Positions 30,613-64,000 of a stretch of DNA of 64,000 bases are shown piece by piece. The notes beneath the pieces were generated by a model, which did not search any database, was not told the origin of the DNA, and saw nothing but the letters and a program-made list of their open reading frames with translations. The number at the start of each line of letters is the position of its first letter. Position 1 is the first letter of the stretch. Made by a program: the position numbers and the translations under genes. Origin of the DNA: Sporopachydermia quercuum (Eukaryota > Ascomycota > Sporopachydermiomycetes > Sporopachydermiales > Sporopachydermiaceae); NCBI GenBank assembly GCA_001599295.1, contig BCGN01000003.1, positions 1,403,148 to 1,467,147 of the forward strand, written 5' to 3'.

Positions 30613-31626
30613 TTACTTGAGCTCGTTGAATTTCTTTGTTAGTTCAGGGACAGCTTCGAACAAATCACCCACATAACCAACATCAGCGACTTGGAAAATG
30701 GGAGCTTCTTCGTCCTTGTTGATGGCAGCGATGACCTTAGAATCTTTCATACCAGCAAGATGTTGAATAGCACCGGAAATACCGACGGCAAGGTAGAGAT
30801 CAGGAGCAACTACTTTACCAGTTTGACCAACTTGCAAAGAGTTATCAGCAAATCCAGAATCAACGGCAGCTCTAGAAGCACCAACAGCAGCATTTAATGA
30901 TTCTGCTAATGGGAAAATCAAGCTTTCGAAATTTTCCTTAGATTTAAGACCTCTACCACCAGAAACAACCTTTGAAGCAGATGTTAAGTCTGGTCTTTCA
31001 GACTTTACAACTTCTTCACCTTCCCAGGTAAGAATGGAAGGTTCATTAGGATCACTAGCAGCTTCAATTGGTGCAGATCCAGAACTTGGTGTAACAGCAT
31101 CGAAAGCGGTACCTCTGACAGTAACGAGCTTGATAGGGTCCTTCGATTTGACTGTAGCTAAAGCATTACCAGCGTAAATGGGACGAATGAAAGTGTCTTC
31201 AGATTCAACTGAAGTGATATCAGAAATTTGCTGAACATCAAGAATAGCTGAGACTCTTGGTAGAACATTTTTACCAACAGAGGTTGCGGCAGCAAAAACG
31301 TGGGTTGCTCCTTGCTCTTTGGTGACACCAGCAATCAAAGCAGCCAAGTTATCTGGTAAGCTCTTGTCATACGCTTCATTCTCAGCAATCAAAATCTTAG
31401 AAACGCCTTCAACTCCTGAAAGTGATTCAGCGATAGCCTTAGATGAGCTACCCGAGACTAACAAAGTCAAGTCACCCCCAACTTTCTTAGCAGCTGTAAT
31501 GGTGTTCAAAGAGCTTGGAACAATAGCGCCTCCATTTTGCTCAACAAATGCAACAGTAGATGCAAATCTACTAACAAAAGATGAGAATGCAGGTCTAGAG
31601 AATAATCGGCTGCCAGTTCTCAACAT
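30613..31626 (-). CDS. AIM45: Electron transfer flavoprotein alpha subunit (ETFA), mitochondrial
   Basis: Predicted 337-residue ETF alpha subunit. With ETF beta it carries electrons from mitochondrial acyl-CoA and related dehydrogenases toward the ubiquinone pool. Seen: a short Arg/Ser-rich presequence (~1-24); the N-terminal ETF fold with ATHVFAAATSVGKNVLPRV; and the C-terminal FAD domain with VVSGGRGLKSKENF, LQVGQTGKVVAPDLYLAVGISGA and FQVADVGYVGDLFE. Full length (S. cerevisiae Aim45 is 344). The beta subunit gene CIR1 lies 14 kb away in the same window, and their promoters share several G-rich words. The start is the first ATG. Confidence 0.96.
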   Translation of the reverse strand: MLRTGSRLFSRPAFSSFVSRFASTVAFVEQNGGAIVPSSLNTITAAKKVGGDLTLLVSGSSSKAIAESLSGVEGVSKILIAENEAYDKSLPDNLAALIAGVTKEQGATHVFAAATSVGKNVLPRVSAILDVQQISDITSVESEDTFIRPIYAGNALATVKSKDPIKLVTVRGTAFDAVTPSSGSAPIEAASDPNEPSILTWEGEEVVKSERPDLTSASKVVSGGRGLKSKENFESLIFPLAESLNAAVGASRAAVDSGFADNSLQVGQTGKVVAPDLYLAVGISGAIQHLAGMKDSKVIAAINKDEEAPIFQVADVGYVGDLFEAVPELTKKFNELK

Positions 31627-33438: not shown

Positions 33439-35070
33439 ATGAAGATCGCATCTTTTTTGATCCTTGCAGCTGCTGGAATGGCTGCTGCTTCGATTAAGGT
33501 CGCTAAGGATGGATCTAAAGTAATCAATTTAGAATTGGAACCAAAACTTAGACCAGTTACTCCTAAATTCGCAAGGGCACATTCTTTGGAAAGAAGAGAT
33601 GGGTCTTTTGTCGATGTTGTTCTCGATAATCAACAAAACTTTTATTACTCCACCAATCTGTCAGTTGGCAGTAACGGGGACCGAGTAACAGTTTTGGTTG
33701 ATACTGGATCATCTGATTTGTGGGTTCCTTCATCCGAAGATCCTTACTGTCAAATAGCAAGCTTTAGACAGCAATGTGAAATTTGGGGTACATTTGATGC
33801 TGAAAAGTCAAGTTCGTTTTCAGCAAATAACAGTGCTCCAGAATTTTACATTCAATATGGGGATCTCACCTTTGCACAAGGTATCTGGGGAACTGATTCA
33901 GTGGAAATTGGTGATGTAACACTTACCGATTTCTCATTTGCTGTAGCTACTACAACCAATTCTACGCAAAGTGTTCTTGGTATTGGCTATGCAGCTGGAG
34001 AAATGACTAATCTACGTATTCCCTCCGGTGGATCATCCAGTGATCTTTATACTTACGCAAATCTTCCAGTAGCTTTGGTTGAAGAGGGATTTATCAACTC
34101 GAATGCTTATTCTCTTTATCTCAATAGTAACACCTCTGCTACAGGATCTGTTCTTTTTGGGGCAGTTGATCATGCAAAGTATGAAGGTACACTCTCAACG
34201 TTGAAAGTTGTGAATCCTTATGCAGCACAAGTTGACTCACCGGTTCGTCTACAGGTCACTTTAAATGATCTATCTATCAGTGACCAATTCAACATTTTAA
34301 ATTCACCTCTTCCTGTTCTTCTTGACTCCGGTACATCTTATAGTTACCTTCCAAGCACAATAATCGCTGCTATGGACCGATTCTTTGATGGTCTTTATGT
34401 TGACTCTCTTGCTGCCTATGTCATAAGTTGTGATGATGCAAATGCCAACACATTGCAGTTCAACTTGACAGGTGTCACCGTGGATATTCCTTTCTCTAGC
34501 TTCACTACCGCACTTTATACTACAAGAGGCTATGTTGTTACTCTAGATAATGGTGATCCAGCTTGTGTAGTCAATATACAAGATTCATCCACTGTTGGTC
34601 TTCCAATTCTTGGTATAAATTTCCTTAGATATGTTTATGCCGTTTTTGATTTGGATAATAACGAAATCTCAATTGCCAATGCCATCTTCGATGTTGAAGA
34701 TGAAGATATTGAAACAATTGCGAAAGGACCCAGCGGTGTTCCTTCTGCAACTGATGCTCCGTACATTTCAGCAACATATTCTGGTTCAATGTCATCAGAT
34801 TTCTCCGTTGGTTTTGGTGGTTTTTATGACCCTGCTACTAGTTATGATAACAGTGCCATTNTTGGTACTACAACTGATGGTGAGAGTACCCTTACAGATG
34901 GAACTGGGGCCGAAACCACTACTTCTGACACAACGACTGATTTTGACCCCAATTCTGATTCTGGAAGTACAAGTGGTGACGCTGGTGCTTTGGTTACTGT
35001 TGACACCACATATATTTATGGGTCATTCGGAGGTTTGGCGTTAATATTTGGTCTGGGATTATTCGTTTAA
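33439..35070 (+). CDS. Yapsin-type aspartyl protease, predicted GPI-anchored
   Basis: Predicted 543-residue pepsin-family protease at the cell surface; yapsins shed or process wall and secreted proteins. Seen: a signal peptide at ~1-18 (MKIASFLILAAAGMAAAS); a short propeptide ending in a Kex2-like RR at 52-53; the first catalytic motif VLVDTGSSDLWVPS with D88; and the second VLLDSGTSYSYLP with D296. The C-terminus is Ser/Thr/Gly/Asp-rich (~450-520), then ends in a hydrophobic tail as in GPI proteins. The frame is open further upstream from a TTG, but the ATG at 33439 gives the signal peptide and is preferred. It lies directly before the WOR1 upstream desert. One N near residue 475. Confidence 0.92.
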   Translation: MKIASFLILAAAGMAAASIKVAKDGSKVINLELEPKLRPVTPKFARAHSLERRDGSFVDVVLDNQQNFYYSTNLSVGSNGDRVTVLVDTGSSDLWVPSSEDPYCQIASFRQQCEIWGTFDAEKSSSFSANNSAPEFYIQYGDLTFAQGIWGTDSVEIGDVTLTDFSFAVATTTNSTQSVLGIGYAAGEMTNLRIPSGGSSSDLYTYANLPVALVEEGFINSNAYSLYLNSNTSATGSVLFGAVDHAKYEGTLSTLKVVNPYAAQVDSPVRLQVTLNDLSISDQFNILNSPLPVLLDSGTSYSYLPSTIIAAMDRFFDGLYVDSLAAYVISCDDANANTLQFNLTGVTVDIPFSSFTTALYTTRGYVVTLDNGDPACVVNIQDSSTVGLPILGINFLRYVYAVFDLDNNEISIANAIFDVEDEDIETIAKGPSGVPSATDAPYISATYSGSMSSDFSVGFGGFYDPATSYDNSAIXGTTTDGESTLTDGTGAETTTSDTTTDFDPNSDSGSTSGDAGALVTVDTTYIYGSFGGLALIFGLGLFV

Positions 35071-35735
35071 AAGTATGCTTACACATATATTTGATTTGAA
35101 TCTTAAGAATGATTGTTTCACTTTCTAGATTGGATTAATGACTTCATATCTATTTAGGGGTTCATTATTTTATTTTCGAATTTTGAGTAAAGTCATTCTT
35201 ATTAATCGTAGTTAGTGTAGTCGTATAGTTTGAGTTCCATTGTTTTGTTGGGTAACTTTTTCTTAGTAAGCTTGTAGACGTAGTTTCCAATAAGCTAATT
35301 ACATACAACATCCTGGCTTAGAAAAAAACAGAAATCCTTTGAGTAGAACTATCTGGTCCACATATTGCCATGCTTTTCTAACTCGTTCGCTCAATTACTC
35401 ATTCTCTCGTATGATTTTTTCATCCTCTTTAGAAAACACTTCCCTTTCTTATAGCGCAAAAACATTATGCTGTGACTATAATATCTACCATACTAAAAGC
35501 TCCTCTTGCCTACAAGTAAACCATCAAGCAGAAATGAACTTATAACCAAAATACCTTATTTGGCTCGTTTTCATCTTTATTCATTCTTAAATTCAATTGT
35601 CAACTAAATAACAATTAAGTTAAACATCCTTCAGGAACAACCTTTTAACTTATAGCTAAATAAACCATAATGAATTTTAGCCCCAACTTTATGTGGTGAT
35701 CTAAATTCTGGTATAAACTCTTTTCTCAGTTGTTC

Positions 35736-35745
35736 AAAGCTTAAT
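35736..35745 (-). promoter_or_regulatory. Wor1-consensus match
   Basis: AAAGCTTAAT on the plus strand is the reverse complement of a WTTAARSTTT site, the consensus reported for C. albicans Wor1. Confidence 0.3.
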
Positions 35746-37299
35746 TACAGTAAGAAATTGAAATATCACGAACGAAAGAATAAACGAATTATTGTGGTAC
35801 TGTTTCCAAGTATCACATTTTAATTATAAAAATCAACAGTTGATCCCACTTGCAATTCAAATTAGAGATGAAAGATTTATTCTGTATTTCTCGTTTGTGG
35901 TTGACATATGAAGCAGAAACATTGGTTAATCGGAGTTCACCGAACACAAAGTAGGTATCGAAAGTTTTTGAAGACTTCACACAAGATACCTACCTGCATA
36001 TGTAAGACAAATATTGTTTTATAATATCATTCAGTATATATAATGAATGTAGTCTTCAATTCTCACTCTTTACCAACAAAGTATACATTAAATCAAGTCA
36101 ATAGTAGGAAAATTNCATTTGAAGATCCAAGCTCAATATTTTACTGCGTTTGGTTCAGGGCGAAATTCGCACTTCATACATTAGCGAAAGAAAATATGTA
36201 TCTTGAAAACACCATTGATCGTACTCGTAAGGGAATTTAAGGGAGAACAGTTTTTTTTGTGACTGGTTTATAAATCTACTTTGATCGTTTACAAAACAGA
36301 AAATTAACAGCATATGATAGGTGTAGCTTAGCACCATAAAATCCAGTCTGTTCATCTATACTCCGAAAAACTATCAATTGCGACAGTCGTATTGAGTACT
36401 TATCGCCATTCATTGTTTCGAACGGTAACAGCCGACCAAGTCCTTTTGAAAAAAAAGTTTGAAATATTAAATTCGTTAGCATTAAATACAATTATGGTTT
36501 GCTGCTACCTGTTTAGTTGTAAATGTTTTAGCTTCAAGACCTTACTTTTATTTAAGATCTGANTAGAGACTGGTAAAGTTTCAACGGTAGATGAGATGAA
36601 AGGTTACTTATTTATGCAAAAAGAAACAACAAAGACAGACTCAAATTCAAATGAAATGAANGAAAAGAGATTTTCCAACGTTTACTCTACAGCTTGAACT
36701 TTTGGTTCGCTGAATTCTCTCTTTCTAATACCTGGAATATTTTGTGCACTGTTGCTGAGATCTGGCAAACGTTATAGAAAGATATTATGATTTGAAGACA
36801 GAATTTTGTGATAACTTTTTGAAGCTTTATGAGTCCGATGGTTCTAACTTTGTTGAGATTCCATATTTGATCATGCAACAACAAGAATCTCCTTTTTCTC
36901 AACCGTTAAAAATCATTGTTCTTTCGATAAAGGATGAATAAAAATGCATCAGCAAGACACTGAATTGCCGAGAATTAATGATTAGGTTATAGTCCTTGAG
37001 ATTCAACCTTAAAATCCACTTAAGGTGGAAGGTTAATTGCTCTTTGAAAGGGTCTGGTTGATTAGTTCTTGAATCGCTTTGTTTTGGGTGTCGTGTATAG
37101 TAAAAAGGAGGATTTGACACTATATATCTTCATGACTAAGCAGAATAAGGATTTATATACTTCATATAGTTATAATCATGTTGGTGAACACAGGATACTT
37201 AAAGTAGAAGAGCTTATATGAACGACTTCCATGTTTGTTTAAGCAAATAAGTTTGTATTCAAGTGGCAACTTTATATATGAAGCCATGAATACTCGTAC

Positions 37300-37309
37300 A
37301 AAGTTTAAA
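37300..37309 (-). promoter_or_regulatory. Wor1-consensus match
   Basis: AAAGTTTAAA is the reverse complement of TTTAAACTTT, a full match to WTTAARSTTT. A one-mismatch site (TAAGCTTAAT) lies about 35 bp downstream. Confidence 0.3.
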
Positions 37310-40180
37310 AGCTTCACTTAGGAAATTAAGGAACTTAAGCTTAATTTGAAACTTTTTTTCTCACTGTTTGCCTGTCCAAGGATGGCAGTTTCTTGAGAAC
37401 CCAGGGAAGACTTTATATAGATATTAGTATGTTCTTTCACTATCGAATTAACAATTATGACAATCAATTGTAATCCAAATACCGTGATCTTTAATGTTCT
37501 AGTACCTTGTTGTAATAAACTCATGTCACTGTAGGCTCAAGTAGTCCCTCAAATAAACCGTTAGGAAAACCAGACACCTGGCTTGGAGGCTATGGTTATA
37601 TATAATGCTTCCCTACATATAAGCCTCCATTTTACAATTATTAAACACCAGTAGACATATTTTAGTGTCGAGAACTCTGTTCGAATGTATTTCAACTGAT
37701 CTGTAGACGTGATAATATACCATTAATCCAAACCAGTTCATTTACGAGGCCTAATACCTCAATGGGATAACATTCTTCCGATTAATAATATATATTATAT
37801 TTTTTCAACCGCCGTTTATTAATTTACATTTCAGCAACCTCTTTCATATCGTGAGGACGACATCTCAAAATTATAGTTCGGTTCCAACAGTTTTGTTCCT
37901 TCATTAAGATGTACTTTGATATAAAAGGTTCATTATTTCTGTTTCTTTGATGAAAGTATGAAGTGTTACAAGATACCGATGTCCTACTGATAACTGCTAA
38001 GGAAATAGAACTATTGATTTCAATTATCCGAAAGCTATCGTCATATAACAAAATTTTCCCTACTATGTGCCATCCATCATCTAGCTAGTTATTGTACACG
38101 ACTCTACATGACATCACAAGAAAACGATTTATTTAGTTAGTTTAAATTAGACCAAACATAATGGAGAAATTCGAGAACCCTCATTGGATTTAAATACATT
38201 TTTTCTCATGTGTATGAAGAATATTCGTATGAATAGAACTCCTTCCTTGAGCTATCTATCTTATGCAATTCCAGACCAACAAGAGAGCTGTATTTCATTG
38301 AAGAACCATGATATGTCAGGCCAGATTGAATGATATAGTAGTGACTCAATATCTATTGTTATGATACAAACCGATCCAACGACAGTTCTTCCATAAAGTT
38401 TAAGTCTTATCATTTCAATTATTTCAATGTTTGAGCCAGAGAGTGCATTGATACTCATATCTTAATCCTGATAGAACTCGCCTTTATTATTCTTAAGACT
38501 ATTTCAAACTTCCCAAATTCATGTTGAGTAGTTCATTGAGTAGTTCATTACTTTAAGTAACGCGGGTAAAGTTTACATTTAAGATTAGGGTTCACCGAAA
38601 AGTTAAAAATTACCTGAGAGATTTAAGATTCATTTTTATTTCCAACTTTCAACAGGCTTAACTTAAATAATAATAATACTGTTGGCAACATATTACAAGG
38701 CAATACGTAAATGTAGAACGAGATTCAGAATTAGTCACCGGATTAAATGCTTTTTCAATAATCGATATATTCGACGGAAGCATATCTTCTAAATATTAAC
38801 CTTCTTCAATTCGAATCATGTGAATCAATTTAGTGTTTGATTACAAAAGAGTACTTCCTTTTCTATAGTAAAAGTCGTTGAATTCACAACCCCCAATCTT
38901 ATATAAGCTCTCAACTGAACTTTCCAACCTCACATACTGAAAATATGAAGTTAGTTTAGACAACTTCATATTTAGTTGCATCTACTCTTTAACTTAAATG
39001 CTTGTATTTTCAGGGCCGTTGCAGACATTTGGTACCAGGTATGGAAATACATCAAAAGATTCTTGAACATATAGTTGAGTAGTTCTCAGATTTTCGTGGT
39101 AATTCACTACCTGATTTGCTATTCATGTATAATACTCAATTGAGTTCATAATAGGATCTGCCATAGAGCAGAAAAATGCATTGAAGGGACTCTTCGCTTG
39201 AACAGTCGACCTATAAGCAGACTATTGTACACTGGTATGGAAATGTACGATTTTTCGATTACCAGCAGACAAGGTGCGAATAAAAAAAGAGCATTATTTG
39301 TTATACATTAATATGAATATGAAAAGCATCCTACTTGATTTTGAACTTGAAATGTACCATTTGCGCCTTTGGTCTATAACCAGATTTTAACTGCTGTATT
39401 CCAGAAGTTAATTTTTTGCGTGTTACTCCATCCAGGATTTACGCAGTGTGCTTTATTTTACCGTCCAAGTATATCCTGGTTGAATTCTCGCAATCGATGA
39501 CGCTTTCTCAAAGATTTTAATTGGCTTCCCTTCATATATTGTCTATAGTCAATAGTAGTTTAATGTATTGTTTTACTATGATCGTCTGTCGACAATCTTT
39601 AACTTGTGCGTATTAGTAGCTGTTTACACTCGTTCTATCCTTCCCATTCATAGGCAGATAAAATAGTGTTCTTNTGATCTAAAGTTTAGCTGAGTTAAAC
39701 TCCCAATCTTATTTTAATGAAGATCTTAGTATTGACTTTCGTAACACCTCCCAGTCGCAGCAGGAGATGAGCCTAATACATTTTGGACGAAACATTAAGC
39801 AGCAGTAACCAAGAAATCTAAAAAGTAAATCAAATGGAATTAGGATGCTACGCTATATAGAAGTTTTTATACAGTATATTCCTTTTCATATAGCTGTCCT
39901 AAAAAGTAACGAACTGTGAAAGTATAAGAGACACGATCACCCGAAAGACACACCCAACAGATACCTGTGGTATGATATGAGATACATATTTTTCTTCAGT
40001 CAAAATTCCCGAACCATTGGAAGTAGCATTAATAACCAAATTCGAATCTATTTACGAATATATTCCTTTACAATGCCGTAGTAGTAATGCTGGATACCTG
40101 AACAGTTAGTAATTTCTTACCTCCGAAAACTAAATAACCCAGACCATATAAGGGGCTGAGGGCGTTAGACCCTTTCTACT

Positions 40181-40212
40181 GAAACCTTGTTTTGGCTCAA
40201 AAACAAGGTTTC
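40181..40212. repeat. Perfect 13-bp hairpin upstream of WOR1
   Basis: Left arm GAAACCTTGTTTT (40181-40193), 6-nt loop GGCTCA, right arm AAAACAAGGTTTC (40200-40212), with no mismatch. It sits 1.43 kb before the WOR1 ATG, next to a G/C-richer patch (40149-40175) that has its own short AAGGG/CCCTT pairing. If transcribed as leader RNA it would fold strongly. Confidence 0.8.
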
Positions 40213-40987
40213 AATGTTTATTTCAATATCCCTCCCAAAACATGACCATTTAGGTTCTAAGTTTAGAGCAAATGTTAACCTTGTTTGCTTTCGGATGGNT
40301 ATTCTCATCCTTAGATCATTTGGGTTAAGCTTTATGGATTCAATTTGTTTAAGACAAATCCTAATTATGACTTTGGAACGATGGATATTCAAGCCCTGAT
40401 ACATCAAATAAACTATCTCAACGAACATGCAATAATTAAGGGTTTCATACAATGAATCAACAATCGAAGAATACAGGATNCTGTGGAGATATAATAGTTT
40501 TTCGCGTTGGAAAAAGGTAATTGATCCAATTCTAAGTCACAGCGACAGAACTTTAATGGTAAGCCAAGTTGACTTGGTCCTTCGAATTACTCACTAGTTC
40601 TACTTAATGAAATACATATTAACTGGGTGTATCGGCATTGTATCAATAAGACTTTCCTACTTCGTAGAATAAATATAGCGTTAGTAATCAAAAGTAGTCA
40701 ATTCATAAATTGAACCGATGGTAAACAACTGAGACTTGACATTACTTTCGACAATTCCAGCACAACAAAGGGCATCACGTTTGCTTGAATATCATGACAA
40801 GACATTTGTCAATCGTTACTTCTCAAACTGGCAAATAAAAACCATTATTCAATCCAGTAATCCCTGCGTTTCATTTTATCAGCTATTGTTATTTGATTAA
40901 CACGCCCCTTGTTGATAAATTGTATAATCTGTTTTGATGTTTGATTGAAACGAAATTTGCTCTTTCGAACTTTTTAGGTACATCTCG

Positions 40988-40997
40988 TTTAAGGTTT
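40988..40997 (+). promoter_or_regulatory. Wor1-consensus match
   Basis: TTTAAGGTTT fits WTTAARSTTT in full on the plus strand, ~645 bp upstream of the WOR1 start codon. Confidence 0.3.
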
Positions 40998-41641
40998 GTT
41001 CGTCAATGTTTATTAAGTACATTCTCGGAATGTGCGTNCTTTCAACAGTTGGATAGGAGTTCAACTAATTGTTTTAATACTTTCTAATAAAGTTAATCGT
41101 ACATTTAAATACTACTAGTATTTTCACTGGATATAGGTTGATTACTAAGTTACAAAATCTTTCCGTCACCAGAAGCTTTAGAAACAATAAGTAACAAAGA
41201 GAAAATCACCAATTTGAAGAAAAAGGAATTTCTAGTCTTTAAAGTATGTTGTCATACATGCCAAGTGTTTAAACCTTAACTCTAATACATGTAAACGGGT
41301 TGTGTTTATTTTTAAAGTGTGCACTAAAATTTCTAGTAAGTTTCTGATTGTTTCTTCTAAACTTAAGCTTAAATTGTTCATAAAGATGGGAATCTCTCCT
41401 TTTCTTCCTCTTTATGGTTTATATTTGTAAACTGTCTCTCTTTCTCTTCTTTGTTACTTTGATATAAATTAAACTGAATCAAATTAGTTAATTGATATAT
41501 TTATATATTCTTCGATTTGTCAATTTGTTTAACTCCAGACCTTTCTTCAATTTCATAGTTACTGGTTTTAATCTCTGTTTTCGCTTGAATTCACTAACAA
41601 TCCTTGTACTAGGTAGATCAACCAAATGCTATTTAGTAAAA

Positions 41642-43063
41642 ATGCCTTATAGTACGAACTCGAAGATTGTTCCAACCTTTTTTGGTTATGTTGCCACTAC
41701 CAAAGATGCTTTACTCTTAATTCAAGCGACCTTGAATGAAACTATACCACTTGTTCCCAGAAGACCTCATGACAGGGAAAGGGGCGACCTTATTAAGTCC
41801 GGTAATGTTTTCATTTTCAGTGAAGAAAAATCAGGAATTAAGCGGTGGACTGATGGTGTATCTTGGTCACCAAGTAGAATCTTAGGAAGATTTTTGGTGT
41901 ATCGTGAATTAGATTCTGCTGCCGCTGGTGAAAAATCAAAAAAGACTAATGAAGAAAAGGATAAGAAACCAACTATCAATAGTAATGGCTCTANTGATCT
42001 GCCTGGTAACGCTAATATGAACAGAGAACTTGTTGGTTCTTTAGTTTCTTCCTATGCATTCAAAGATCATGGATTGGTAAAGAAGACTCTATCAATCACT
42101 ATAAATAGACCTGAACCAGAAACTGTTCATATGGTTTCTTATTACTGCGCTGAAGATGTTTTGGCCAATAAGTTGATCAAACCTATCGATAGTGAAGAAT
42201 TAAGAGATGTTAAGATCTCTAACGAATTATGGATGGCTGTTAAGGAAACTGGTATTGGCGCAAAGAATGCCGGTGAAGAAGAAAATAATATCGGAACTAA
42301 TACTCCCATGATGGGTGCTGGTGGTGCTCAAGGCCACTTAATTGCTGATGGTAGCCATGATTATTCTACTGTTGGTCCTCATGATTTAAATGCAGCTTAC
42401 CAAATGAAACCAGACGCCATGTCAGGTTATCCATATCAAGTTCCTCAACCAATTCAACTCGTCCGACAGCCAATGACTCAACCTTATCCTCCAGGAAAGT
42501 CTTATGCCTACCCAGGAATGTACCAGCCTTATGGCCCTCAAGGTCAGGTATATGGACATGATATGTATAACACTGGTGCTGGTTTAGCTTATGCACAACA
42601 ATCACAAGGAACTCAAAATAAGTTACCATCACAAGGTACCCAAGGACAAGGGCAAGCACAAGCTGCTCAGGGTCAACAATCAACACCAAATATTCAGCAA
42701 CCCCAATTACAACAAGGATCCACGGAAACCCCTACTAATACTTCAGGGAATGCAGCAACTAATACAAATGCTTCCAATATGGTTCGTCCTATTTCTAGCA
42801 TCGGTGGCATGTCACAAGGATTGCCCCAACCTGGTGAATTGCACCGGCACACTGGGTATGTTCCTCATTATGATCCTTCTGGTCAAGCTTATTCTAGGAC
42901 TAATATGCCTTATACGAGTATGTCATCTAACATAGCTGCTAATTCTGGTAGAATTGGTACAGGAAGTTATTCATCAGCATACGGCAACTTTGATGAAAAC
43001 GCCTATGCTCAACAATATCATCTACAACAACAAAATCAGTACCAAAGTGGTTCTCACCCTTGA
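41642..43063 (+). CDS. WOR1: WOPR-domain transcription regulator (Wor1/Mit1/Ryp1 family)
   Basis: Predicted 473-residue DNA-binding regulator. Relatives control white-opaque switching (Wor1), filamentation (Mit1) and dimorphism (Ryp1). Seen: WOPR box A at ~1-90, with PTFFGYVATTKDALLLIQA, VPRRPHDRERGDLIKSGNVF and the hallmark SGIKRWTDGVSWSPSRI followed by FLVYRELD. Box B is at ~140-205, with HGLVKKTLSITINRPE and HMVSYYCAEDV. The long C-terminal half is rich in Gln, Asn, Gly, Tyr and Pro, like prion-type activation or condensate-forming tails. The upstream frame is open to 41492 but lacks an ATG; the ATG at 41642 puts box A at the N-terminus as in relatives. The gene lies after a 6.6-kb gene-free stretch. 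Confidence 0.93.
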   Translation: MPYSTNSKIVPTFFGYVATTKDALLLIQATLNETIPLVPRRPHDRERGDLIKSGNVFIFSEEKSGIKRWTDGVSWSPSRILGRFLVYRELDSAAAGEKSKKTNEEKDKKPTINSNGSXDLPGNANMNRELVGSLVSSYAFKDHGLVKKTLSITINRPEPETVHMVSYYCAEDVLANKLIKPIDSEELRDVKISNELWMAVKETGIGAKNAGEEENNIGTNTPMMGAGGAQGHLIADGSHDYSTVGPHDLNAAYQMKPDAMSGYPYQVPQPIQLVRQPMTQPYPPGKSYAYPGMYQPYGPQGQVYGHDMYNTGAGLAYAQQSQGTQNKLPSQGTQGQGQAQAAQGQQSTPNIQQPQLQQGSTETPTNTSGNAATNTNASNMVRPISSIGGMSQGLPQPGELHRHTGYVPHYDPSGQAYSRTNMPYTSMSSNIAANSGRIGTGSYSSAYGNFDENAYAQQYHLQQQNQYQSGSHP

Positions 43064-44452: not shown

Positions 44453-45284
44453 TTACAAAACACCAGCTTCCTTAATCTTTTCAACAAAGGAGTCAATTGA
44501 GTCAACCTTGATTCCAGCTTGTCTTGTAGGTGGCTCAGAAACTTTCAAAGTCTCTAATCGTGGAGAAATATCAACGCCGAGATCTTCTGGCTTAAGCTTC
44601 TCAAGAGGCTTCTTCTTAGCCTTCATAATATTTGGAAGAGTTGTGTATCTGGGTTCATTCAATCGTAAATCGGTTGTGATAATCATTGGCAGTGGTGCAG
44701 ATACAGTTTCTGAACCTCCATCAACCTCGCGGGTAACAGTCACCTTATTACCAGCAATCTCAACTTTGCTTGCATTAGTAGCCTAGCAGTAACAATTGTT
44801 AGTATATCCTTCAAAGAATAATTCAAACATAAAAACTTCAACATACCTGTGGCCATTTCAATAAACCGGCAAGAATTTGACCAGTTTGGTTAGCATCATC
44901 ATCAATCGCTTGTTTTCCAAGAATAACTAATTGACTTCCTTGTTTTTCAACTGTCTTTTGTAAAATCTTAGCAACTGCTAAAGGTTCAACAATCTTTTCA
45001 CCGACATCAACCAATGTAGCGCTATCAACACCTTTAGCCAAAGCAACTCTCAATACTTCTTGTGCTTTAGTAGGACCAATGGAAATACTATGAATTGACT
45101 CAACCAATTCCTTGTTTCCTTCACGTATTCTCAATGCTTCTTCAACTGCAATATCACAGAATGGATTAATACTGAATTTAACACCTTGTGTTTCAACTCC
45201 AGTGCCAGCCTTATTGATTCTAGGCTTGATGGCAAAATCAATTACCCTTTTGACGGGCACAAGAATCTTTAACTTAGAAGACAT
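44453..45284 (-). CDS. CIR1: Electron transfer flavoprotein beta subunit (ETFB), two exons
   Basis: Join of 45284-44847 and 44782-44453 on the minus strand gives 255 residues (S. cerevisiae Cir1 is 261). It is the partner of AIM45 in the mitochondrial ETF heterodimer that passes electrons from dehydrogenases to ubiquinone. Seen: [19 protein letters not shown] at the N-terminus; [43 protein letters not shown], the AMP/FAD-site loop; then after splicing the C-terminal [21 protein letters not shown] and [16 protein letters not shown], which is the ETF-beta signature. No cleavable presequence is obvious, as usual for ETF beta. The ATG at 45284 is chosen over an in-frame GTG at 45332. Confidence 0.95.
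44783..44846 (-). other. CIR1 intron, 64 nt
   Basis: Minus-strand donor GTATGT (from 44846), exact TACTAAC at 44804-44798, acceptor TAG ending at 44783. Phase 0. Removing it joins WPQ to ATNAS in ETF-beta order. Confidence 0.93.
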
Positions 45285-46504
45285 TATATGATATACAGTT
45301 GATGACAACCTTTCCTTCTTTTCTATGGTCACTTGATTATACAGTAGTCCAACTTTTCCGTCAATAATATGAACAGTTACTCTTTACAAAGTTTGTACAA
45401 GAAATTGATACAGACCAATGACAACAATCAACTCAACCGCAAAAGAATTACCAACAGCAATATCACTATAATCAACTATATTCAACTGTATCAACACTAT
45501 CGTAACAACAACACATATACTAACACTTACAATATAAGTATTGAATCAATCAGCTTTTTCTTCATCCATATTCAATGAATTTACCTCATTTGGCCCTCTC
45601 CCTTCTTCCCCCTATTATGTGCCATGCGCTATTCTCTGAGGTTTCCTGATTCATCTTTCTTACCGACAAGCCGGGATTTCAAAAATTTTCAAGCGGGGGC
45701 CTTTCTTGCTATATGCTTTCGGCACTTAGAAATGATCTCGAGACACTCCTCCAAGGGTGAGCGGAGTTTCCCCACAGGGCAAAAGGGGTTACCCGTAGGA
45801 GGATTTGTAGGAAATAAGTACCTACCTGCAAGGATAGAGCCATTCGTACGTTGGATATGTCATGATATAGGGGATGAGGGGCCAGAAAGGCCAGAAATAT
45901 ATCCCTATTTTTGAAGTAAACCGTAGGCACGTATTGATGTATTTATTAAATGCTGGGTTATGAAGAATAAGTTGGCGAAAGTGATATGCTTGAGGATTAA
46001 TCACTGCAGGGTGAACATGCACAATATGACGTATCTACACAAGCATGCATCCCATTGATTACATGTATATTTCCAGTTGACCGATAATCCATCTTTCTCG
46101 GCCCGAAGAGCAGTTGAACAGAATATTCTATAATAATATGACCCTTAATTGCAATTGAGGATACTCTAGTATTTAGATAAGAGAGTTACTGAGCGAATCT
46201 GATTACAGCTCATCAAATGACTGCATTGACAGCACCTATATTTAGTACCTAAGCATCTAGGAGAATGAAACGCTTGCAATTAATATCATTGGTACAAGTA
46301 TCGGTGCATTAGGCTACATCACATATATTCGAGGGCAATAAGTGATACATTTACAATAGTTCGTTGACAAGCACTAACTAACTAATATATTACAATCACA
46401 TTAAGACTACATTCTTATCTGTACTGCAGATGGAACTGTCATCACGACAGCTATTAAATTACAACTCCAACCATATTATCAACTTCTCTGCTTGATTCTT
46501 TGCT
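45285..46504. other. Intergenic region CIR1/STU2
   Basis: 1.2 kb between tandem minus-strand genes: the CIR1 promoter and the STU2 3' end. The part 45690-45885 is markedly G/C-richer than its flanks and holds the G-rich words shared with AIM45. Apparent ORFs of 66-96 codons across it (45624-45914 plus, 45709-45930 minus) overlap each other and look like by-products of the base composition. The STU2-proximal part is AT-rich. Confidence 0.55.
45692..45881 (-). promoter_or_regulatory. G-rich upstream element of CIR1
   Basis: It contains AGCGGGGGCCTTTC (45692-45705), ATCTCGAGA (45735-45743), TGAGCGG (45758-45764), AAGGGGT (45783-45789) and GATGAGGGG (45873-45881), about 400-600 bp upstream of the CIR1 ATG. 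Every word recurs upstream of AIM45. Confidence 0.5.
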
Positions 46505-59598: not shown

Positions 59599-62500
59599 AT
59601 GTGGATCCAAACATTACCTTCAGAAATACTGGAGATTGCTTCTTCATTTGCTTTGAAAAGTTTGGCTTATCTTGTTACTGGTTTCTTGCTGCAACTGCTT
59701 ATCCTAAGGCTACTATATTGGTTCACAGGGATAAACATCTTATCATTTGGCCACTTGTCTCTTCATAGAATTCGCTATGAACTAAAACCTGGGTTGAAAA
59801 TGTCCGTCAGAAAGATCGGAGTTTCCTTTCATTTACCTAGTGTATCCAGACCCGGATGGTTTACACTATATATAGTGAGTCCTCAGTTTGAGCTGGACTC
59901 ACAAATTCTTATTACTAAAGGATCGAAAGTAAAACAAGCCAAGGGAGCAAAAGAACCTGGACGAAGGAGAAAATCTAAGGGAAGAAACAAAGAAGGTGAG
60001 AATCCTGATGACTCATTATTAATATGGCTGGACCAATTCACAACATCTTCGGATAATGATTTAAGCTATATCTCACTGAAAAGTATTCCTCATTTACCAA
60101 CAATCCTATCTATTGTTAGATGGATGAGATTGCAGTATTTTGATTTGTCTTTGTACAATCTAACTGTTGCATATGCATCTTTGGGTTGTGTAGTGATAGG
60201 AGAAATGCATTATAAGCTTAATCTTGGTGATCGATTAAGTAATTTAGAGTCAATTTCTGGCACTCTTTACTCATTTATGCAGAACCCTAAAGTAACAAGG
60301 CCAATCATCCAAACGTTTACGTGTCGTGAGATTGTTGGTTATTCATTTGAGGGCTCAATTGTTGATAAGACAACTGGTCAACCTCCTGCGTTTGATTTCT
60401 TTCATAAAATCAATTCTGAAGTCCATCAAAGAAATCCCGGTTATAATTACTCTCATTATTCTAAATTAGTTGATGTTTTCACTATCAAGGTTAATTACAT
60501 GTTTGATACTGAAAAATATTACTTATTTGATGCATCTGTTGATGTTAGAGTTGGCACATTAACGTTATTGATGAATAAGATTGCCGCTGCCGTTGCTGTT
60601 ATGATGAATGATTATAGATTGGGCAAAGAGTATTCTGATTATGTTGAAAACGAAGAAAATGCTCCAGAAGAGGTGACTTCCAAAGACCCGGGATTGTTTT
60701 CTAGTACATCTGAATCTCCGGATATAGTTTCCGATATTGATGCTGAAGATCTAACATCTGCACTTAATTCTATCATATTAGCGGCCAATGCAGTGAAACT
60801 GATTCGTGAATTTGAATTCAAAGTTGATGTGATTTCAGTCTTCAAGCTTGCTTTGAACAAGAAATGCCATCAGCAGAATATCTTTTTCTCATTTGTATGT
60901 AATGATTTTCTGATTGATATTAGCAGATTGAACCCTCATAACCCAGGATTCAAGCTATTCTTCTCTCAAGATGAATGTGCTCACCAAGCATTATGCGTCA
61001 TGAATTCAATTCATTTGGGTGTTCATAGAGGCAGTGAGATAGACGAATTAATGTACATCCCTGTTGTCAACTATATATCTAAAACCAATACGTTGTTTCG
61101 AACGCTAAGGCTGATAATACAGAACATCGGGGTGAGTTCTGGGGTTAATATCCGAAAAGATACATGTGGAGGTGAAAGTAGGAAAAAGAAATCAGAAATT
61201 ATAACGGAACAAGACCCAGAGAATATAGAAGAGACACCGGAAGCTAAACCGAATGAAATCCCAACTTCGGAGTCTTCAGAGACTTCAGGGTCTTCAGAAC
61301 CTTTACAACAACCAACTCATAGTATTCTCAACGGCACTCTCAATGTTTCATTTCCGTCATTTGATTTCGCAGAACATCACATTCCCATATTACTGAAACT
61401 AATTGCGTGCTTCAAATCAGCAGACACATCGTCATCAGAATTGAAACCCCAGACGACTTTGTCGGGAAACCCTTCCGAACAGCACATGACTTCAACCGGT
61501 AAATTATTAAGCAAACTCCAGAAGTTTATTCCTATTATGTGCCTTAAAGTTATATTATCGGCTCCTGCTCTCCGAATGTCGATAACAACAATTGAAAATG
61601 GTAAATCTCGAGATGAAATGATCATTTCTTCTTGTGAGGCTTTAGTACTACAATTAACGGGTGAACATAATCACTCCAACTCAGTTTCCGAATCCGATTC
61701 TGATTCCGAGCGCGATTCTGATTCCGAGACCGAGAAAACTTCCGAACATAAACATCGTGGAATCTCATACAAAGCATTAGTTTCTTGCTCTCTCAATACT
61801 TTTGAAACATGGTATCGGCTAAAAAATGGAGCAAGAGTTGATTTAATAAGATCAGAGAGTCTGTCTGCTTCTATTGAAAGCATCCTAACTAATGGAAGGG
61901 TTCTTGCTGCTATTGATGTCGGTTTGAATTATTTCCACGTTGACTGTCAGCGGAAAGAAGTTGTTGATGGGTTCTTAAAACTAGCAGATATAATCCGATC
62001 GACCAAAGCTCCGATTTACTCTGCTCCGAAACCTCAAAATACACAAGCAAATCTCCCCTTAGTGGCATCATTGCCGTCTTGGATTACCAATATCTCGGTT
62101 AAACTACAAGACTTCTCCATTGCTTTAGCGTTACAACTAGAACTGAAAGATTGTAGCTCGGAAGATGAATCTATGGCCAAAATACCAAGAGGATTCAAAT
62201 TAAGCTTAGTTAGTGTTTTGGCTAGGTATAATAATCAGTATGGGGAAAGACCGGAAGATTTTGATCGGAATTTGGAGATATTATTATCGGAATTAAAAGG
62301 ATTAAAAATACAAGAGGATTCCGAGAGCGATACATTTGGTTCAAATCAGTTTTTGAGTTTGCCAGAGTTAACTTACCGAAGCCGATATAATCCGAAAGTG
62401 AATGAATCATGTTTGGATATTAAGACAATCCGGTTGTTTTATACGTTGAATTTGCATTTCCTAATAGCAATGATAATGTTAGCAGGTGGAGGACAACCAG

Positions 62501-64000
62501 AAACTATACCTGAAGAAGGAAACCCCGAATCGGACACTATATCGGAAGGATCTGTTGATGGCTCAAGTATTTTGCTGAGAACTCCGTTATCACGTGCCTT
62601 TTCAAATAGAACAACTGAAACTATTACCCCCCTTTCCCCACATACCCTACCAGCCCCGCTCCCTAACCATTCCTTCAAAACCGACATCAAAACTGTTATT
62701 GTCAAAGCAATCTTACCAAATGATCTTCATTTGATGCTTGAATTGTCATCATCTGTTTTATCTAAGTTACCATATACTCCGCCAAGTTTTCAAACTAAGC
62801 ATTTAAGGTTGTATACCCTGAGTCCCACTATCAAACATACTTGGGTTAAGGTTCTTTCGGCTCAAGAGTTCAAATTAGGGAAAACTCAAATAGAACCGGG
62901 TTCAATCAAAGCTCCCACTGTCGTTGAAGACAAATGGAACGAAATCTCGCTTCCAGAATCGATGGAGCCAACGGAACCCATGGAATCGGCCGAGTCAACC
63001 AAAACGGCAGAAGTGAAGCCGGAAATCTCAGCCGACATGAAATCTTTACTTATTGCCTTACCTCATCAGTACCCCTTCTATAGGATTTTTGATAACATAA
63101 TCACAGCCGCTAAAGCTGTCAAACAAATTCATTACTCGGCTAAGCACGGCATAACTGAAATGATAGCAGGACCGACTATTGAACAACCGAAGGTTCCTCA
63201 TAGAACTAGAATTAAAGCTTCTAGATTCTTATTATGCATTCATGAAGACTCTTTTGAAGCTGAATTAGGAGTTATATTTCAAACCGGGTTGAACGAGCAG
63301 TTAGCTCGGATAAGCCGATGGGAATTGTTTAATAAGAAGTACAAAACTTTACTGCAGATATATCAAAAGCATGGTCCATCAAGGTTAGGACATCCTCATA
63401 CCGATAAGGATGTATTTATTTCCAATCTAGAGTTGGAGGATTTTTCCGAAGATCGGAGGAAAGGTCCATCTTTCCGGCTTCCTCGTTTACATAACCATAG
63501 TAAAAGAAGAAACACTGCGGACGCTTTCAAGTCATCGGAACCTAGAACCCGATCTCCGGGATTAGATGATATTATGACAACAATAGCGGAAGCTCGGGAA
63601 AGAATGTATGAAGGATTTTCCCGAACATGGATCAAAAGAATCCAAGCGGCTAGACGGTATGGTGAAAAACAAGCTCGGAAAGCTCGAGAAGGATTTTTAG
63701 GCAAAGATTGTATTCCGTCATATGAACTTTTAAGTTCGGAAAGAGTATTAGAAGATCCAAGAGCTTTCCCGTTATTTTCCTATATGGTTTCGGAATTAGA
63801 CCTGACATTGGACAAACCGAGATTCCGGCTTGAAGATTTACCGGAATATCTTGCCGAAACAGGTAAGAACATGCCGAAAACGGCGACTTTTACCCTTTGT
63901 TTCCCAATGTATATTCAAGTCGATTCTTGTGATTTAAGAGTCTTACTCCGAGATTACCCGCTTCCTTTACTACATTTACCAGGATTTCCACCCGATCAGC
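59599..64000 (+). CDS. FMP27: Fmp27/Hobbit bridge-like lipid-transfer protein, N-terminal part
   Basis: The frame is open from the ATG at 59599 to the window edge, 1467 codons with no stop, so the gene is cut, not broken. Fmp27 (YLR454W) and YPR117W are ~2500-residue RBG-type proteins that form a groove for bulk lipid transfer at ER-plasma membrane contacts. Seen: an N-terminal membrane anchor (~20-45, SLAYLVTGFLLQLLILRLLYW); then the start of the groove with ILSFGHLSLHRIRYEL, VRKIGVSFHLPSVSRPGWFTLYI and WMRLQYFDLSLYNLTVAYAS; a low-complexity Ser/Asp/Glu repeat at ~697-720; and at the edge DSCDLRVLLRDYPLPLLHLP, the GFWDK-region motif of this family. It is the second half that carries frequent CCG/CGG words. 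Which of the two S. cerevisiae paralogues it matches cannot be told. Confidence 0.9.
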   Translation, partial: MWIQTLPSEILEIASSFALKSLAYLVTGFLLQLLILRLLYWFTGINILSFGHLSLHRIRYELKPGLKMSVRKIGVSFHLPSVSRPGWFTLYIVSPQFELDSQILITKGSKVKQAKGAKEPGRRRKSKGRNKEGENPDDSLLIWLDQFTTSSDNDLSYISLKSIPHLPTILSIVRWMRLQYFDLSLYNLTVAYASLGCVVIGEMHYKLNLGDRLSNLESISGTLYSFMQNPKVTRPIIQTFTCREIVGYSFEGSIVDKTTGQPPAFDFFHKINSEVHQRNPGYNYSHYSKLVDVFTIKVNYMFDTEKYYLFDASVDVRVGTLTLLMNKIAAAVAVMMNDYRLGKEYSDYVENEENAPEEVTSKDPGLFSSTSESPDIVSDIDAEDLTSALNSIILAANAVKLIREFEFKVDVISVFKLALNKKCHQQNIFFSFVCNDFLIDISRLNPHNPGFKLFFSQDECAHQALCVMNSIHLGVHRGSEIDELMYIPVVNYISKTNTLFRTLRLIIQNIGVSSGVNIRKDTCGGESRKKKSEIITEQDPENIEETPEAKPNEIPTSESSETSGSSEPLQQPTHSILNGTLNVSFPSFDFAEHHIPILLKLIACFKSADTSSSELKPQTTLSGNPSEQHMTSTGKLLSKLQKFIPIMCLKVILSAPALRMSITTIENGKSRDEMIISSCEALVLQLTGEHNHSNSVSESDSDSERDSDSETEKTSEHKHRGISYKALVSCSLNTFETWYRLKNGARVDLIRSESLSASIESILTNGRVLAAIDVGLNYFHVDCQRKEVVDGFLKLADIIRSTKAPIYSAPKPQNTQANLPLVASLPSWITNISVKLQDFSIALALQLELKDCSSEDESMAKIPRGFKLSLVSVLARYNNQYGERPEDFDRNLEILLSELKGLKIQEDSESDTFGSNQFLSLPELTYRSRYNPKVNESCLDIKTIRLFYTLNLHFLIAMIMLAGGGQPETIPEEGNPESDTISEGSVDGSSILLRTPLSRAFSNRTTETITPLSPHTLPAPLPNHSFKTDIKTVIVKAILPNDLHLMLELSSSVLSKLPYTPPSFQTKHLRLYTLSPTIKHTWVKVLSAQEFKLGKTQIEPGSIKAPTVVEDKWNEISLPESMEPTEPMESAESTKTAEVKPEISADMKSLLIALPHQYPFYRIFDNIITAAKAVKQIHYSAKHGITEMIAGPTIEQPKVPHRTRIKASRFLLCIHEDSFEAELGVIFQTGLNEQLARISRWELFNKKYKTLLQIYQKHGPSRLGHPHTDKDVFISNLELEDFSEDRRKGPSFRLPRLHNHSKRRNTADAFKSSEPRTRSPGLDDIMTTIAEARERMYEGFSRTWIKRIQAARRYGEKQARKAREGFLGKDCIPSYELLSSERVLEDPRAFPLFSYMVSELDLTLDKPRFRLEDLPEYLAETGKNMPKTATFTLCFPMYIQVDSCDLRVLLRDYPLPLLHLPGFPPDQ
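61681..61740 (+). repeat. Ser/Asp/Glu-coding short repeat in FMP27
   Basis: Repeated GATTCTGATTCCGA words code an alternating Ser/Asp/Glu segment, probably a flexible, possibly phosphorylated loop in the lipid-transfer rod. Confidence 0.6.

Follow-up and report, generated by a model that had tools for sequence, protein, structure and literature searches.

The WOR1-like locus and its upstream interval

The 64,000-nt stretch of DNA analysed in the current study (the window; nt 1403148–1467147 of contig C3 in the 16.39-Mb, 12-contig genome of Sporopachydermia quercuum) carries a gene for a transcription factor of the WOPR (Gti1/Pac2) family, and this gene is preceded by a long tract without recognisable genes. 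The tract runs from the stop codon of a yapsin-like gene (nt 35070) to the first in-frame ATG of the WOPR gene (nt 41642), with exact coordinates at both ends, and is 6,571 bp in length. A first-pass annotation had described it as a gene desert between two rightward-reading genes, and both parts of that description hold: the two genes share the same orientation, and scans for codon usage, protein families, RNA families and tRNAs found nothing between them. The features at the centre of this analysis are as follows.

33439–35070, forward strand: yapsin-like aspartyl protease, the upstream neighbour (PF00026, E 1.5e-68)
35071–41641, forward strand: intergenic DNA free of genes, the proposed control region upstream of the WOPR gene; neither coding signal nor RNA family, no second copy and no repeat of note
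41642–43063, forward strand: WOR1-like WOPR transcription factor gene, 473 aa (PF09729, E 4.5e-57)

The codon-usage score was trained on 46 long open frames, and 100 first-order simulated gaps served as the null. Within nt 35071–41641 the best score was 7.5, against a simulated median of 7.0 and maximum of 10.4, so that no coding signal is present at a threshold which could miss short peptides, non-coding RNAs or microgenes split by introns. Of the stop-to-stop frames in the interval, the ten longest (71–123 codons) gave a best Pfam E-value of only 0.089; neither codon score nor Pfam detected a gene in the gap. Across the whole window there was no tRNA (ARAGORN, bacterial setting) and no Rfam match at gathering score. 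A relaxed-threshold Rfam search of the interval returned a match to snoRNA ncR3 at nt 39841–39911, which was dismissed as chance (22.9 of 88 bits, E 0.2). The DNA of the interval has no second copy across the 16.39-Mb genome, its only detectable tandem repeats are four short ones, and it has no terminal or tandem repeats of note. A hidden gene was rejected because the codon scores, Pfam and Rfam were all empty, and a mobile element or duplicated DNA because the interval is single-copy.

The PF09729 match of the WOPR gene scores 193.3 bits, relative to a curated cut-off of 23.6, and the closest solved sequence is White-opaque regulator 1 (4qtj, E 3.4e-43), followed by YHR177W (4m8b). The C-terminal part of the protein is rich in glutamine (Q) and asparagine (N), which together make up 21% of the last 267 positions (stop included). 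Exactly two WOPR genes were found in the genome, the second being on contig C5. The window gene carries the motif WTDGVSWSPSR, where the solved Wor1 sequence has WTDGISWSPSR and the C5 gene WTDGKSWSASR; the last of these we take to be of the Pac2 type. Among solved sequences the window gene is closest to Wor1, and its placement on the Wor1 rather than the Pac2 branch is a tentative one, following from this motif comparison. The two genes are referred to below as WOR1-like and PAC2-like.

The first-pass annotation had also placed this organism in a lineage that does not reassign CUG to serine, and two genes bear this out. FAS2, which adjoins the second WOPR gene, has 11 CTG codons, of which six lie in the displayed part of its alignment with the best solved sequence (6u5v, presumably from Candida albicans); five of these face Leu, one Val and none Ser. 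The four CTG codons of RPN11 stand opposite L, L, M and V, again with none opposite Ser. A reading of CUG as leucine in the present yeast is supported by these alignments.

Long upstream regions are shared by four regulators

Spacer lengths were taken from a sample of 60 genes and 58 spacers in 205 kb, made up of the window with a further 5 kb, plus the last 135.6 kb of contig C5, a stretch chosen since the other WOPR gene sits there. The length background is thus about 1.2% of a single genome. The lengths derive from mechanical open frames and codon scores rather than transcripts; undetected small genes would shorten the background more, and an undetected exon could shorten the long regions. 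The median spacer is 1,277 bp and the 90th percentile 3,340 bp, so that the WOR1-like interval is 5.1 times the median, and the earlier statement that it is several times longer than most spacers is borne out over all 58. The two longest spacers of the sample precede the two WOPR genes (7,155 bp, gene-free, for the PAC2-like gene and 6,571 bp for the WOR1-like gene), and the third is 4,703 bp. This last figure is also the maximum among 56 background upstream regions, and is exceeded by the WOR1-like interval. Within the window the runner-up is 3,314 bp, and among tandem spacers lying upstream of genes in the sample the next after the WOR1-like interval is 3,467 bp.

Candidate regulators were picked throughout the genome by protein family from coordinates alone, and stretches of 6.5–10 kb were then examined. 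The families yielded 2 WOPR, 6 KilA-N, 1 STE, 2 TEA, 1 NDT80, 2 MADS, 70 zinc-cluster and 5 homeodomain loci. Nine regulators were measured; the length survey left aside the KilA-N loci at C7:1291947 and C6:460797, the STE locus, one of the two TEA and one of the two MADS loci, and all of the 70 zinc-cluster and five homeodomain loci. Two of the three shorter-frame KilA-N (APSES) loci are, judging by their domains, of the EFG1/StuA class. One of them has about 7,088 bp of gene-free DNA upstream, divergent from the clathrin heavy chain gene. The other has about 8,598 bp, again gene-free, bounded by an open reading frame (ORF) with a low codon score of 8.3; this ORF, presumably a primase subunit, has no Pfam support, and the true gap could be longer. 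The remaining five regulators, whose labels are putative and start from the family match, have upstream regions of about 2,777 and 1,389 bp (longer-frame KilA-N), 5,334 bp (MCM1-like MADS), 847 bp (NDT80-like) and 3,128 bp (TEA).

With the WOR1-like interval excluded, the rank test was applied to the three regions that had not been employed to pose the question, i.e. those of the PAC2-like and the two EFG1/StuA-class genes. All three are longer than each of the 56 background upstream regions (exact rank test, p 3.1e-5), and all three are likewise longer than each of the 17 divergent spacers in the background (p 8.8e-4). For the five other regulators, the upstream regions show no significant excess of length over background (p 0.10). 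Since the two WOPR and two APSES genes have long regions and the five others do not, length appears to go with particular regulators, the MCM1-like gene being a partial exception.

A Wor1-type word is shared by the long regions

The four long regions (29.4 kb) were compared with 60 other spacers (93.0 kb) for the frequency of 14,357 8-mers. The comparison set consisted of 55 spacers of the sample and five from the other regulators, the two WOPR spacers being part of the foreground and one spacer of under 100 bp being left out. The word ranked first was TAAAGTTT, seen 18 times where 3.2 were expected (10 occurrences in the 93.0 kb of other spacers), and the second was TTAAAGTT, with 21 occurrences relative to 5.4 expected. 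The first word is spread over all four regions: four copies in the WOR1-like region, four in the PAC2-like region, six in the APSES region of ~7.1 kb and four in that of ~8.6 kb. The published Wor1 site is TTAAAGTTT (PMC3364952, PMC8496238), and TAAAGTTT and TTAAAGTT are two 8-letter parts of it. In the WOR1-like region the four copies are located as follows.

36574–36581, forward strand: WOPR core word TAAAGTTT
38394–38401, forward strand: WOPR core word TAAAGTTT
38567–38574, forward strand: WOPR core word TAAAGTTT
39680–39687, forward strand: WOPR core word TAAAGTTT

The ranking is stable under several kinds of control. Among 280 anagrams, TAAAGTTT and TTAAAGTT are ranked 1 and 2, the anagrams overall having a ratio of 1.08, and the conditional binomial p for TAAAGTTT is 1.8e-5. 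When each region was left out in turn, TAAAGTTT stayed first in three cases and fell to second, behind TTAAAGTT, when the WOR1-like region was removed. It also stayed first with only spacer interiors as the comparison. In 300 random subsets of spacers with equal total length neither word ever entered the top ten (0 of 300), and the best rank reached by TAAAGTTT was 15 (median 7,437). Its density is 0.61 per kb in the four regions and 0.15 per kb in the seven other spacers of at least 3 kb.

Closely spaced copies of the word were then considered across the genome. Same-orientation pairs of TAAAGTTT not more than 30 bp apart occur 30 times, compared with 12 for the reversed control. The sole triple cluster of such pairs lies at C5:520110–521533, where three pairs fall within 1.4 kb; a rough, post hoc calculation gives a chance expectation of 0.0001 for such a triple. 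Downstream of it, an ORF with its ATG at C5:522026 encodes the stretch LPPISSLLN (800 bp read, C5:521401–522200). This stretch suggested a regulator, and of the possible classes the homeodomain was tested. The family search placed a homeodomain at C5:522677–522847, in a frame matching the ATG at C5:522026 (444-aa open frame, its DNA having been read as far as nt 522200). The position of a homeodomain gene beside the triple cluster supports the idea that the word may mark regulator genes. The association with zinc-cluster genes is weak: three of the 30 pairs lie within 5 kb upstream of one of the 70 domains, where 0.64 were expected (p 0.027), and p becomes 0.057 at 3 kb and 0.085 at 8 kb. The genome has two more homeodomain matches, at C3:1856175–1856315 and C3:1863231–1863401, 7 kb apart on the same strand, which might be two mating-type homeodomain genes of one locus.

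Other features of the interval and the window

Two further features lie near the 3' end of the interval.

40180–40213, no strand assigned: perfect inverted repeat, arms of 14 bp around a 6-nt loop (fold z -3.67)
41626–41652, forward strand: upstream ORF of eight codons, overlapping at its end the start codon of the WOPR gene in another frame

No further copy of the inverted repeat was found genome-wide with up to three mismatches allowed, and the 60 other spacers (loops of 3–12) contain three perfect inverted repeats of 11–13 bp and none of 14 bp. The short upstream ORF could lower translation of the WOPR protein, given a transcription start that lies upstream of it; there are eight ATGs within nt 41001–41641.

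When the WOR1-like region is taken alone, the top words are ATATGAAG, ACTTCATA and AAGCTTAA. The word CTTCATA/TATGAAG occurs ten times in it (nt 35142–39536), relative to 22 in the 93 kb of other spacers, and two of the copies make up a 12-bp inverted repeat at nt 38941–38973; the word is possibly the site of another regulator. Several sites were sought by consensus sequence. The a1-alpha2 operator (S. cerevisiae, 20 bases) has no match in the interval with fewer than three mismatches and two with three mismatches (1.48 expected), i.e. nothing above chance, and its shorter forms are no more frequent there than in other spacers. Words for APSES proteins (TGCAT), Ndt80, Tec1, Ste12 and Mbp1 show no clear rise in the WOR1-like region, the highest being Ndt80 (0.76 vs 0.56 per kb); a rise of TGCAT is confined to the APSES region on contig C5. 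An Mcm1-type pattern, in a single count, stands at 1.22 vs 0.69 per kb in the WOR1-like region.

The window contains 43 isolated single Ns, which look like masked ambiguity codes and are perhaps heterozygous sites. Their density is 0.41 per kb in coding DNA and 0.88 per kb in the other intergenic DNA of the sample. The 10-kb APSES stretch on contig C1 and the 7.2-kb PAC2-like region have none.

Genes for electron transfer flavoprotein (ETF) functions flank the yapsin–WOR1 pair, with the alpha subunit at nt 30613–31626 and an ETF-domain gene at nt 44838–45332. The latter may encode the beta subunit, and a coding segment on the same strand at nt 44459–44782 may be its second exon. At the right end of the window an apparent second gap of 7 kb was dismissed, as it consists mostly of an open frame that starts at nt 59914 and runs past nt 64000; this frame has a strong coding signal and about 3,000 codons, and crosses the window end.

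A proposed control region and its alternatives

We consider it probable, from the combination of length and word content, that nt 35071–41641 form a large cis-regulatory region, by means of which the WOPR protein would regulate both itself and fellow regulators. Many inputs would converge on the 6.6 kb in front of the WOR1-like gene. The WOPR protein would bind sites of the TAAAGTTT type scattered over its own upstream region, binding would be activating, and the resulting autoregulation would be positive. The same protein would also bind the regions of partner genes, and we infer that these are the PAC2-like and the two EFG1/StuA-class APSES genes. Their upstream regions would be long because they collect many inputs, with room for many sites. 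Equally large regions with the same sites at four genes suggest an interlocking circuit like that of Wor1 in C. albicans, and by this analogy the four regulators probably form one. The first-pass annotation had supposed that a large integrating control region might be an old feature, present also where CUG is not reassigned to serine; this gains support here from the leucine reading of CUG, from the likeness of the regulator to Wor1, from the long regions at three related regulators and from the enrichment of the Wor1 word in the four regions taken together.

A number of observations weigh against this proposal, most of them concerning the word. The WOR1-like region has no perfect copy of TTAAAGTTT (0.42 expected by shuffling). 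Its four TAAAGTTT cores are modest by themselves, with p 0.035 against second-order shuffles and p 0.006 against the 0.71 expected from other spacers, and the word ranks only 73rd when this region is analysed alone. Because five Wor1-type word variants had already been counted in the WOR1-like and PAC2-like regions before the open 8-mer comparison, the motif has a fully independent test in the two APSES regions only; there, six cores give p 0.0001 and four cores p 0.015. The reversed word, TTTGAAAT, is itself raised about two-fold (11 in 29.4 kb vs 17 in 93.0 kb), and in the four regions AAAGTT occurs 85 times (36.6 expected) and AAACTT 71 times (31.2 expected); given these increases, base composition may explain part of the word signal. 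As for the raw p, 3.5e-10 is unexceptional: 114 of the 300 random subsets have a top word at least as strong, and the top word is poly-A or a TA repeat in 89 of the 300. Since random subsets often reach such a raw p, the evidence rests on the identity of the word and not on the p-value. Outside the word data, the MCM1-like gene also has about 5.3 kb upstream, and Ns in the WOR1-like region stand at 1.07 vs 0.88 per kb, so that, if they are heterozygous sites, its variability is not lower.

The most serious alternative, which we nevertheless regard as unlikely, is that the gap is mostly inert DNA of a kind generic to a gene-sparse 16.4-Mb genome, with a compact promoter close to the ATG and with words that merely follow the base make-up of long spacers. 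The generally long spacers of this genome (90th percentile above 3 kb), the MCM1-like gene, the rise of TTTGAAAT and the undepleted Ns would all sit comfortably with it. It accounts poorly for the concentration of the longest regions at two WOPR and two APSES genes, for a TAAAGTTT density that is 0.15 per kb in other long spacers as opposed to 0.61 per kb, and for anagrams that are scarcely raised. Less probable again is that unrecognised transcription units (long non-coding or antisense RNAs, or tiny genes), whether regulatory or not, account for the size of the gap. In C. albicans, antisense transcription does occur opposite the long 5' untranslated region (UTR) of WOR1 in white cells (PMC2924316), and the perfect 14-bp hairpin, found nowhere else in the genome, lies within the gap here; against this, a coding signal is absent, none of the ten longest frames has a significant Pfam match, and Rfam gives nothing at gathering score. 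A lost gene or a decayed mobile element is very improbable as the origin of the gap, even though the gap exceeds any other tandem upstream spacer of the sample, as it has no residual coding signal, is single-copy, lacks notable terminal or tandem repeats and is matched in size at three related regulators.

Returning to the proposed control region, a wider version may be put forward tentatively, and with some doubt. According to this, a WOPR-centred interlocking circuit with super-enhancer-like regions would already exist outside the yeasts that read CUG as serine, the giant regions would be ancestral, and a heritable cell-type switch of this yeast's own may follow. Its members would be the WOR1-like, PAC2-like and two EFG1/StuA-class genes, the homeodomain regulator on contig C5 and perhaps some zinc-cluster regulators. 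The model predicts specific regulated genes, foremost among them this homeodomain gene.

Comparison with known WOPR systems

It is an open question why fungal cell-fate regulators, like their animal counterparts, are preceded by so much regulatory DNA; the yeast evidence found in the current study comes mostly from C. albicans. In that species, intergenic regions bound by Wor1 exceed their expected length about 5-fold, and the 5' UTR of WOR1 measures 1,978 bp, with antisense transcription in white cells (PMC2924316). Wor1 binds its own upstream region and those of other regulators, EFG1 being among the circuit genes (PMC2924316, PMC7793994). Within the WOR1 promoter, deletion of any one of the binding regions P2, P3 and P4 blocks commitment, whereas P1 and P6 are dispensable (PMC8546583). 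The present locus is similar in placing a WOPR master regulator behind a large upstream region, and in its putative partners of the EFG1 type. The present yeast differs in that it reads CUG as Leu and has no perfect TTAAAGTTT upstream of its own WOR1-like gene; a long leader, antisense RNA, binding and bistability would be candidate features here.

Related systems are known further afield. Histoplasma capsulatum, a filamentous ascomycete, has a network built on Ryp1, an orthologue of Wor1, and in S. cerevisiae the WOPR protein Mit1 acts in a filamentation network, where it binds sites of the same type as well as other morphology regulators. The Histoplasma system resembles the present one in its long bound intergenic regions and differs in that the Velvet proteins Ryp2 and Ryp3 share targets there. 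The intergenic regions bound by the Ryp proteins are longer than the genome average (PMC3720256), and this is the case that came up when the literature was searched, outside C. albicans, for WOPR or biofilm regulators with long intergenic regions. Strong mutual binding of biofilm regulators is conserved over four Candida species, according to a paper whose excerpts are silent on length (PMC8075579). A large WOPR upstream region is in itself, therefore, of a kind already known, and what is new is a case outside the yeasts in which CUG means serine.

Super-enhancer-like elements and condensates of regulators have been proposed for C. albicans (Frazer et al. 2020, as cited in PMC7793994 and PMC12333994; see also PMC10718430). 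The likeness here is again in the large regulatory regions, and the prion-like tails of those regulators have a parallel in the Q/N-rich C-terminal part of the present WOPR protein, which would fit the condensate model by analogy. This yeast serves as an outgroup in which CUG has its standard meaning, regulators of the same kinds have similarly oversized upstream regions, and the same word is the strongest signal that these share; it allows one to ask whether size and wiring are ancestral and whether the length of a region tracks its number of WOPR sites. If the wider proposal is true, giant control regions would be ancestral to the circuit and not an invention of C. albicans.

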